A DNA stretch of 64,000 bases from Aureobasidium sp. EXF-3400. Taxonomy: Eukaryota > Ascomycota > Dothideomycetes > Dothideales > Saccotheciaceae. The translations under genes and the position numbers were made by a program. The stretch spans positions 36,123-100,122 of the forward strand of contig SWBL01000182.1 in assembly GCA_024195585.1 (NCBI GenBank). The letters are read 5' to 3'. Positions 16,166 to 30,290 of the stretch are shown here, piece after piece (position 1 is the first letter of the stretch; every line of letters begins with the position of its first letter). Below the pieces are notes generated by a model that searched no databases, was not told where the DNA came from, and saw only the letters and a program-made list of their open reading frames with translations.

Positions 16166-17328
16166 CTAGAGGAAGTAGTCGGGAGTGCGACGAGACACCA
16201 TGGGCTCGCCGGCGCGTGGGCAAGGATCGAATTGAAGGCTAAATAACTGGTCAGCAAGGTCTGATTTGGATGTATGGATGGGAAAGACGCACAAGGTGTA
16301 TTTCAGATGTTCATCAATCTCCATGATTGCGGCTTGGTTGCCGCAGCGGTAACAGTAATTGGGAGCCGAGAATATCGTGACGACGTTTCTGTCTTGACTC
16401 CAGTTGTAACCTTCCATGACCAGCTGATGGGCGCGGGCAACCAGTGTCAAACCGTTGTTGTGGTTGAAAGCCTCACTGATGTCCTGGCCGAAAGTGTAAC
16501 CGGCACCTCTGGGGCTTATTCCCCAACCACATCTGTCGTCGGGATCACTCCAAAGCAGATCGCACATGGGACCCTCGTGGGGCACCTCTTGGATTCTGTC
16601 GAGCGCACGAATGTTGTCCAGTGTATCGATGCTCGGTGATAGACCACCGTGAAGACAGAAGATTTGGTTGTCGATCAAGGCGGTAAGGGGTAGGTAGTCG
16701 AAGAGATCGGTGAAGTACTTCCAGACGTTTGCGTTACCATACTTGCGCAGACACTCGTCATAGAAGCCGTAGACTTGGGTGATCTGACGGGACTCGTGGT
16801 TACCACGGAGGATGGTGATGCGTTGTGGGTAGCGAATCTTCAGGGCGACGAGCAATGTCACGGTTTCTACGGAGAAATAACCGCGGTCGACGTAATCGCC
16901 TGATGGAGCACGTGTCAGTAAAAAGCGGCCATGGGCAGAGAGCAAGGAGTCGAGGCGCACCCATGAAGAGGTAGTTGGTGTCGGGGTTGGGGCCTCCGAT
17001 CTTGAAGAGCTCCATCAGATCGTGGAACTGGCCGTGAATATCTCCGCAGACAGTGACGGGACATTTCTGTGCAGCAGCAGTGTCAGCTCGAGTGCATGGC
17101 TGAGCAGCGACACAGGTAAGATGGACATACGACAGGCTGGACGTTGGACTCGTCCTGGAGGACCTCTCTTGCCTTTTCGCACAGTCTCTGGACATCGGCT
17201 TCGGACAGCTGCTTGCAGGCCATCAAGCTCTCGATCCAGCCGTCGAGGGTGGGGATTGCTGGGGGGTCAGAGGGCGCCGTCATGGGGAGTTCTGGCTTTG
17301 CGCCAACATCTTCCATGTTGGTGTCCAT
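16166..17328 (-). CDS. Serine/threonine protein phosphatase 2A catalytic subunit
   Basis: This is the catalytic C subunit of PP2A. Exons 17328-17131, 17066-16961, 16899-16293 and 16238-16166 give 327 residues, the usual filamentous-fungal length. Metal ligands and the catalytic residue are in place: Asp75 and His77 (GDIHGQ), Asp103 (GDYVDRG), Asn135 and His136 (LRGNHE). [12 protein letters not shown] and [11 protein letters not shown] follow. The last exon restores [13 protein letters not shown] and the terminal TPDYFL, whose leucine is carboxymethylated in this family. The extended N terminus, [15 protein letters not shown], is fungal-typical. Within a long open frame, 54 nt must be spliced near 16265 to obtain the conserved C terminus. 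Confidence 0.95.
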
Positions 17329-29362: not shown

Positions 29363-29367
29363 AAAAA
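29363..29367 (-). terminator. RNA polymerase III oligo-T terminator of tRNA-Gln
   Basis: Five T residues on the minus strand lie 17 nt beyond the discriminator base of the tRNA gene, where a Pol III terminator is expected. No T run of four or more occurs in the 53-nt insert. Confidence 0.7.
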
Positions 29368-29407
29368 GTAATTGACACTGAGAAGGTCGTACTGGGGCTC
29401 GAACCCA

Positions 29408-29460
29408 CTAAGAGGTGTTAGAATGGGTGTTTGGTTGTGAGGACACAAGGTCGAACTTAC
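29408..29460 (-). other. 53-nt spliceosomal-intron-like insert inside the tRNA-Gln T stem
   Basis: On the minus strand the insert starts GTAAGT, carries the branch-like CTAAC 10 nt before its end, and ends CTCTTAG. Length, donor, branch site and acceptor equal those of the mRNA introns in neighbouring genes, which are mostly 47-65 nt. It has no pairing that would resemble a tRNA-endonuclease bulge-helix-bulge site. It includes a 17-nt word also found at 29627-29643. Confidence 0.75.
29438..29454. repeat. 17-bp direct repeat, copy 1 (within the tRNA insert)
   Basis: TGAGGACACAAGGTCGA on the plus strand is identical to 29627-29643. The spacing is 189 bp. One copy lies inside the tRNA insert, the other upstream of the tRNA. 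Confidence 0.85.
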
Positions 29461-29519
29461 GGACTCGAGAAGATTTGAGTTATCAAAATCTCGCGTGCTA
29501 ACCGCTACACTATACAACC

Positions 29520-30290
29520 AAGTTGTTGTTGCAAAAGCCGCTTCATCAGTACAAGTACTATCAGATATGTGGCATCCTTGAAGGGCTATCCCATCTCTGG
29601 TTCGCGCTGTCATCATGAGAACAGAATGAGGACACAAGGTCGACGGCTTTAGCTCATCACTCATCAATCCCACTTCTACACCAATGATCCCTGCCTTCCT
29701 TTCATCACATCCCATCTCGCGTGCGACAATTCCTGGCCTTGTTATCTCGCCCACTATGAATCCCAGCTCAACGGAATGGCGTTCTGGACCGCGAATCAGG
29801 AGTTTTGCTCCGAGCGCGATCGAGCGCAATCTGAGTAACACTTTGCAAGCTTTCCCACTTTGGTGGGGCTTTCAAAGCTTCCATATTTGCGATCACGATA
29901 CGACTTGATCTCACAGAGACTTGCAATGAATCGATGCCATGGAAACGAGTATTCAAAAGACAAGTTGTTGTCGCTCAAGCTCGCAAGCATGGTGGATGCA
30001 TGGGAGACATCGTCTTTCCCATCACTCGGATTGTTCTGGCTATGAGCGCGATCCAGAGACGTTCCATCTCCTGCGCTAAAGGCGCTCCGCAACGTCATTG
30101 ACATGCTCTAAAAGGTAAAGTCATAACATACCCAAGCCGATTCCACATCGCAACCGGTAGCAAGCGGTCTTTGAATCGCTCCGGTGTCCGACTCAAATAC
30201 TGAGGTAGGTCACTGCGCCGTTCTGCTCTTCAAACCCCTCAGACCAAGATCATTCTACATTGTTACTTGCGCGTGCCTGACCTGCAAATC
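29520..30290. other. Divergent intergenic region (tRNA-Gln / CFA-synthase-like gene)
   Basis: These 771 bp hold no supported gene. They include the second copy of the 17-bp repeat (29627-29643). The right part should contain the promoter of the methyltransferase gene. Confidence 0.5.
29627..29643. repeat. 17-bp direct repeat, copy 2
   Basis: This is identical to the word at 29438-29454 inside the tRNA insert and lies in the same orientation. Confidence 0.85.

Follow-up and report, generated by a model that had tools for sequence, protein, structure and literature searches.

Most genes for an essential glutamine tRNA of Aureobasidium appear to carry an mRNA-type intron in the T stem in addition to the usual tRNA intron

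The introns of tRNAs and those of mRNAs are taught as being served by two separate machines. U6 is a Pol III transcript, and spliceosomal introns in Pol III RNA genes are already known; a tRNA is the host in which they were not expected. One study describes U3 and U6 as so far the only small structured RNAs in which introns are known to be frequent (PMC5832005). The fungal U6 (S. pombe and others) and U3 introns resemble the case described here in that a small structured RNA hosts a short mRNA-type intron with GT, a branch site and AG. In Aureobasidium, however, it is a tRNA that is interrupted, in the T stem beside the B box, and the 37/38 intron would call for another, unrelated splicing system. 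The other close comparison is with the ectopic tRNA introns of C. merolae, archaea and the Guillardia nucleomorph, where a tRNA gene holds at least two introns, including one in the T arm. Those of C. merolae have bulge-helix-bulge motifs, and their D and T introns are presumed to be removed ahead of the one in the anticodon (PMC9602550); many of those in Guillardia have no defined motif (PMC3978253), and noncanonical introns in archaea are handled in tRNAscan-SE 2.0 by bulge-helix-bulge models (PMC8450103). Unlike these, the T-stem insert of Aureobasidium has conserved spliceosomal signals and no conserved bulge-helix-bulge. It is also separate from the canonical eukaryotic intron at position 37/38. 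No report of a spliceosomal intron in a tRNA was found in the accessible parts of the open-access literature; since most subscription journals lie outside that scope, priority cannot be claimed.

The window, a stretch of 64,000 nucleotides that was analysed as a whole, lies on contig C182 of a 53.4-Mb, 717-contig Aureobasidium assembly, probably of the diploid strain EXF-3400. The features of its tRNA-Gln(UUG) gene are listed in Table 1. The preliminary description had delimited the exons, the 11-nt intron and the 53-nt insert, and had proposed that removal of both pieces leaves a complete cloverleaf. Read on the minus strand, all of these coordinates were borne out, and the gene without its two inserts was a 72-nt tRNA-Gln(UUG), called Gln(ttg) by ARAGORN with a cloverleaf drawn. 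When the whole window was submitted as it stands, ARAGORN detected no tRNA and Rfam gave no match above its gathering score. The internal promoter elements were called by eye against the A-box and B-box consensus sequences.

Table 1. Positions in the window of the interrupted tRNA-Gln(UUG) gene and its parts
Feature	Position	Strand	Basis
tRNA-Gln(UUG) gene, 136 bp, two introns	29384..29519	minus	genome matches and ARAGORN
Exon 1, 37 nt (nt 1-37: acceptor 5' strand, D arm, anticodon TTG)	29483..29519	minus	alignment of copies
A-box region, internal Pol III promoter	29501..29512	minus	by eye
Canonical 37/38 tRNA intron, 11 nt	29472..29482	minus	pairs with anticodon in predicted fold
Exon 2, 11 nt (nt 38-49)	29461..29471	minus	alignment of copies
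Spliceosomal-type intron, 53 nt, between nt 49 and 50 (T stem)	29408..29460	minus	alignment, ARAGORN, intron-minus C106
5' splice site GTAAGT	29455..29460	minus	invariant in 5/5 copies
Branch site CTAAC	29417..29421	minus	invariant in 5/5 copies; nine bases to intron end in 5/5
3' splice site TAG	29408..29410	minus	YAG in 5/5 copies
Exon 3, 24 nt (nt 50-73: rest of T arm, acceptor 3' strand, U73)	29384..29407	minus	identical in 6/6 copies
B box GGTTCGAGCCC	29395..29405	minus	by eye
T5 run, Pol III terminator-like	29363..29367	minus	scan downstream of gene

Six tRNA-Gln(UUG) genes were recovered from the genome with the whole gene as query: the one in the window and one each on contigs C180, C256, C534, C201 and C106, the last matched in two pieces. 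Patterns of 27 nt from the 5' exon and 23 nt from the 3' exon, with up to three mismatches allowed in either, returned these six loci and no others (reversed control, 0). They were also recovered with the C106 gene as query, a search that more diverged Gln(UUG) genes could escape, as it did not recover the related Gln(CUG) genes either. All six possess a 37/38 intron, of 11-16 nt, which pairs with the anticodon loop in the predicted fold. The T-stem insert was present in five, exactly between nucleotides 49 and 50 in each (window, 53 nt; C180, 51 nt; C256, 55 nt; C534, 53 nt; C201, 56 nt). C106 lacks it and has the same bases directly joined at the junction (CC/TGGG). As position and signals repeat at five loci while a sixth has the uninterrupted junction, the insert in the window is more than a chance occurrence. 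The preliminary description had called for a count of other tRNA-Gln(UUG) loci and held that several intact copies, combined with a lack of mature RNA from this locus, would speak against its reading. The count gave five further loci, and instead of several intact copies a single uninterrupted gene was found among the six. Twelve related genes with a different D loop were all uninterrupted (12/12, 72 nt each by coordinates), and the five of them that were read are tRNA-Gln(CUG). Upstream of the tRNA-Gln genes a short motif recurred: CAAC lies within about six bases 5' of exon 1 at all six tRNA-Gln(UUG) genes (positions 29520-29530 in the window), with the longer form CAACAA at four of them and at three of the five tRNA-Gln(CUG) genes read. 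It possibly lies at the transcription start.

The interrupted form was poorly recognised by tRNA finders. With anticodon-loop introns allowed, ARAGORN called none of the five interrupted genes, and it called all five as tRNA-Gln(ttg) once the T-stem insert was left out. Run without introns on forms lacking only that insert, it returned varying names (???, His, Ser); with both introns left out, Gln(ttg) was called for 6/6. Rfam gave the uninterrupted C106 gene 54.1 bits, and C180 (33.9) and C534 (31.1) also scored above the gathering score of 29. Partial matches below that score were obtained for the window (24.8) and C201 (24.3), and none at E<=1 for C256. If the genes are what they seem, tRNA finders miss them, ARAGORN in five of five cases and Rfam at gathering score in three of five. 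The C106 gene (L006:1501-1588) is an annotation trap of its own, being tRNA-Ser(tga) to ARAGORN without introns and Gln(ttg) with them. Group I and group II self-splicing introns, which also reside in tRNA genes, were considered and rejected: apart from tRNA, no Rfam family matched the six loci at E<=1, and the inserts differ in size, 51-56 nt being too short for either group.

In the alignment, GTAAGTT at the start, CTAACA and a terminal YAG are common to all five inserts. The preliminary description had placed CTAAC 10 nt before the 3' end; the motif was confirmed, but nine bases follow it in every copy, and it is the branch-type A that lies ten from the 3' end. All 13 columns of the signals (GTAAGT, CTAAC, AG) were invariant, whereas invariance held in 7 of the 36 remaining gap-free columns (Fisher p = 3e-7, best taken as descriptive, since the five inserts are related by descent and the test overstates their independence). 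Across the inserts, 65-80% of aligned bases were identical, a range inflated by the alignment and with gaps left out; the bodies have drifted far beyond the exons. The inserts thus combine a GTAAGT-like 5' site, a CTRAC branch at suitable distance, a 3' YAG and a typical length (51-56 nt), as in U2-type introns.

The window itself offers mRNA introns for comparison. A gene for the PP2A catalytic subunit (16169-17328, minus strand) contains three short introns of 64, 61 and 54 nt, the first two bounded by tblastn and the third by a homologue without those residues. They start with GTATGT, GTGCGC and GTGCGT, and each has CTGAC and YAG. In the A. pullulans protein P0125 the last of them seems to have been translated as coding sequence, probably an annotation error. 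As the PP2A introns have 15, 14 and 11 bases after CTGAC and the tRNA inserts nine after CTAAC, the inserts stand at the short end for this spacing. A scan of the window for such introns yielded 19 matches, which should include the tRNA insert, against 6.5 +/- 3.3 in resampled sequence. Their median length was 54 nt and the median distance after the branch motif 11 nt (10th percentile, 9.8), with CTAAC in 32% and GTAAGT in 37%. A median intron of 57 bp is given for A. pullulans varieties in PMC4227064. The likeness to local mRNA introns noted in the preliminary description holds for length and for the types of signal, with the branch-to-end spacing at the short end.

Could the insert instead be an ectopic tRNA intron, cut at 49/50 by the tRNA splicing endonuclease through a bulge-helix-bulge as in C. 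merolae or archaea? Introns of that kind exist, also in the T arm of a eukaryote (PMC9602550). At 49/50 the motif could be drawn in part, with three of the four outer-helix pairs in 5/5 copies and a 4-bp central helix in one of 16 registers in 2/5. The strict geometry asks for 3-nt bulges at the cut sites and a 4-bp central helix formed by the end of the preceding exon and the 3' end of the intron. Here the central helix had only 3, 2, 2, 2 and 2 of its four pairs and was complete in 0/5 copies, although this strict test is not very sensitive, as the 37/38 site passes it in only 1/6. With registers left free, the 37/38 site reached 4/4 pairs in at least one register in 6/6 copies. A bulge-helix-bulge at the T stem is thus not conserved, and what is conserved at 49/50 are spliceosomal signals. 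The tRNA splicing endonuclease is not known to need such signals. We regard an endonuclease-cut T-stem intron as highly improbable.

The six genes fall into three pairs by their flanks. The window and C180 loci were 75% identical over 2.4 kb, gene included; C256 and C534 were 77% and 67% identical in two long blocks and 73% in a short one; C201 and C106 were 81.5% identical upstream and 81.4% downstream. The sequences fit allelic or homeologous pairs in a diploid of two diverged haploid sets. EXF-3400 is listed among diploid strains related to A. subglaciale, itself of about 26 Mb (PMC9430960). Within pairs, the exons differ at 3 (window/C180), 0 (C256/C534) and 2 (C201/C106) of 72 positions, a conservation with p = 3e-6, 1e-8 and 6e-5 against the long-alignment identities of 75.2, 77.4 and 81.5%. 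Two of the interrupted genes, C180 and C201, show a change on both sides of pair 28-42, which is A-U in them and G-C in their partners. Besides A28-U42, U16 of C180 is an allele seen exclusively among interrupted genes. A T5 run starts 13-25 nt downstream of 6/6 genes and none occurs inside any of them. A cloverleaf without the inserts, A and B boxes (by eye) and a terminator-like run, the marks of a functional Pol III tRNA gene, were all found in the sequence. Given the constrained exons, the two-sided change of pair 28-42 and the T5 runs, the interrupted copies have the look of working genes, though part of the exon likeness could stem from gene conversion between copies.

These observations bear on whether the interrupted genes are broken or decaying, a neutral insertion having been duplicated with the gene so that only C106 works. 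One uninterrupted gene does exist. Nevertheless, the exons of the interrupted copies are conserved far beyond their flanks and pair 28-42 changed on both sides, their promoter boxes and terminator-like runs are intact, and the 13 splice-signal columns were kept while the rest drifted. Decay would furthermore leave one haploid set without a gene for CAA, as follows from the distribution of the copies. All four members of the other two pairs are interrupted, so that the haploid set of C201 has all three of its tRNA-Gln(UUG) genes interrupted in any phase, assuming that the pairs are split between haploid sets, that the assembly is complete and that no copies were lost. As the anticodon CUG does not read CAA, the C201 lineage would have needed to splice its tRNA-Gln(UUG) genes. 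In the present diploid, C106 may share or carry, even alone, the supply of this tRNA. Decay of the interrupted copies is, in our view, very unlikely. An intron of a Pol II transcript crossing the locus, to which the tRNA gene would be incidental, is barely credible. There is a same-strand reading frame downstream, with an ATG at about 29154, but the insert occupies the same position at five loci, and the 3-kb loci of different pairs align only around the tRNA.

Alignment z-scores for the inserts were 3.4-5.5 in seven of the ten pairwise comparisons and 0.9-1.7 in the other three, window/C180 included, a pattern that supports common descent of the inserts and not clustering within pairs. The C201/C106 pair has one member with the insert and one without. 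C106 may represent a precise intron loss, in which case it looks like a copy of a spliceosome-processed intermediate. Alternatively, it may retain the ancestral state, or C201 may have gained its intron by conversion.

Very probably, the tRNA-Gln(UUG) gene is a working Pol III gene and its 53-nt insert a functional spliceosomal intron of the U2 type. This reading, proposed in the preliminary description, drew support from recurrence, signals, constraint and the intron-minus allele. We favour it over a broken gene because the insert has one position in five copies, its signals are fixed while the bodies drift, the exons are constrained, pair 28-42 changed on both sides, one allele is precisely intron-minus, and no bulge-helix-bulge is conserved. 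From the anatomy, recurrence, constraint and intron-minus allele observed, we infer transcription, splicing, the machine and the order of steps as follows. Directed by its internal A and B boxes, the 136-nt gene would be transcribed by Pol III as far as the T5 run. By way of GTAAGT, CTAAC and YAG, the nuclear spliceosome would then excise the insert, restoring the T stem (49-53/61-65). Once foldable, the precursor would proceed through ordinary tRNA processing, in which tRNA endonuclease and ligase take out the 37/38 intron. The spliceosome is placed first because the later steps need a folded T arm, because of the order in C. merolae, and because C106, if it arose by loss, resembles the intermediate.

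It is likely, judging from these sequences, that both splicing systems are required for an essential tRNA, the one reading CAA. In one parental haploid lineage or more, every such gene would then be sent through the spliceosome, coupling CAA decoding to spliceosome activity, and C106, with its 37/38 intron retained, may be the trace of a precise loss in which a precursor already processed by the spliceosome, but not yet cut by the endonuclease, was reverse transcribed. If a tRNA needs both machines, the spliceosome can serve tRNA genes. This would raise the questions of how U1 and U2 are recruited to a short Pol III transcript that lacks a cap, how splicing is ordered relative to La, end trimming and the tRNA endonuclease, and how introns enter Pol III genes.

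No further tRNA with such a T-stem intron was found among the pattern matches examined, in a non-exhaustive search. The genome contains 14 matches to CTRAC-AG placed immediately 5' of the B box (reversed control, 10), the Gln(UUG) genes accounting for five. ARAGORN called none of the nine other loci. Rfam was applied to six of the nine. In L056 a tRNA coincided with the match, its insert lying in the anticodon loop, and in L055 a tRNA was detected away from the match. Widening the pattern raised the number of matches to 35 (control, 18), again including the five Gln(UUG) genes. Among eight of the 30 other loci submitted to Rfam, L072, L075 and L089 were ordinary tRNA genes, L074 and L095 had inserts in the anticodon arm, and L058, L076 and L077 had no tRNA; many of the remaining matches share their matched strings with the three ordinary genes. 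GTAAGT within 30 nt of a D-arm motif matched once, a spacing outside which the five Gln genes fall. The genome search with RF00005 scored 63 of 1936 candidates. Other Pol III genes were judged by match length. Both U6 matches, unlike U6 of S. pombe, and both SRP RNA matches had full model length and no insert, as had 14 of 20 5S matches spanning the whole model (117-120 nt; the other six were shorter). Spliceosomal-type introns are thus not scattered through the Pol III genes tested. Neither viral nor prokaryote contigs matched the insert-plus-T-arm pattern, which is in keeping with a fungal gene.

Two of the loci with anticodon-arm inserts were unusual in other respects. L095 (contig C197) contains two tRNA-like genes 250 nt apart (1422-1556 and 1807-1950), whose anticodon arms are longer by about 62 and 71 bases. 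In the first gene the insert extends the anticodon stem to a 10-bp helix, and neither insert starts with GTAAGT. They are possibly tRNA-derived repeats or unusual tRNA introns; such repeats are known from some fungi (PMC8450103). L074 (1490-1592, contig C7) is a tRNA-Glu-like gene whose anticodon loop is enlarged by about 31 bases; these include a self-complementary hairpin and CTAAC...TAG, with no GTAAGT start.
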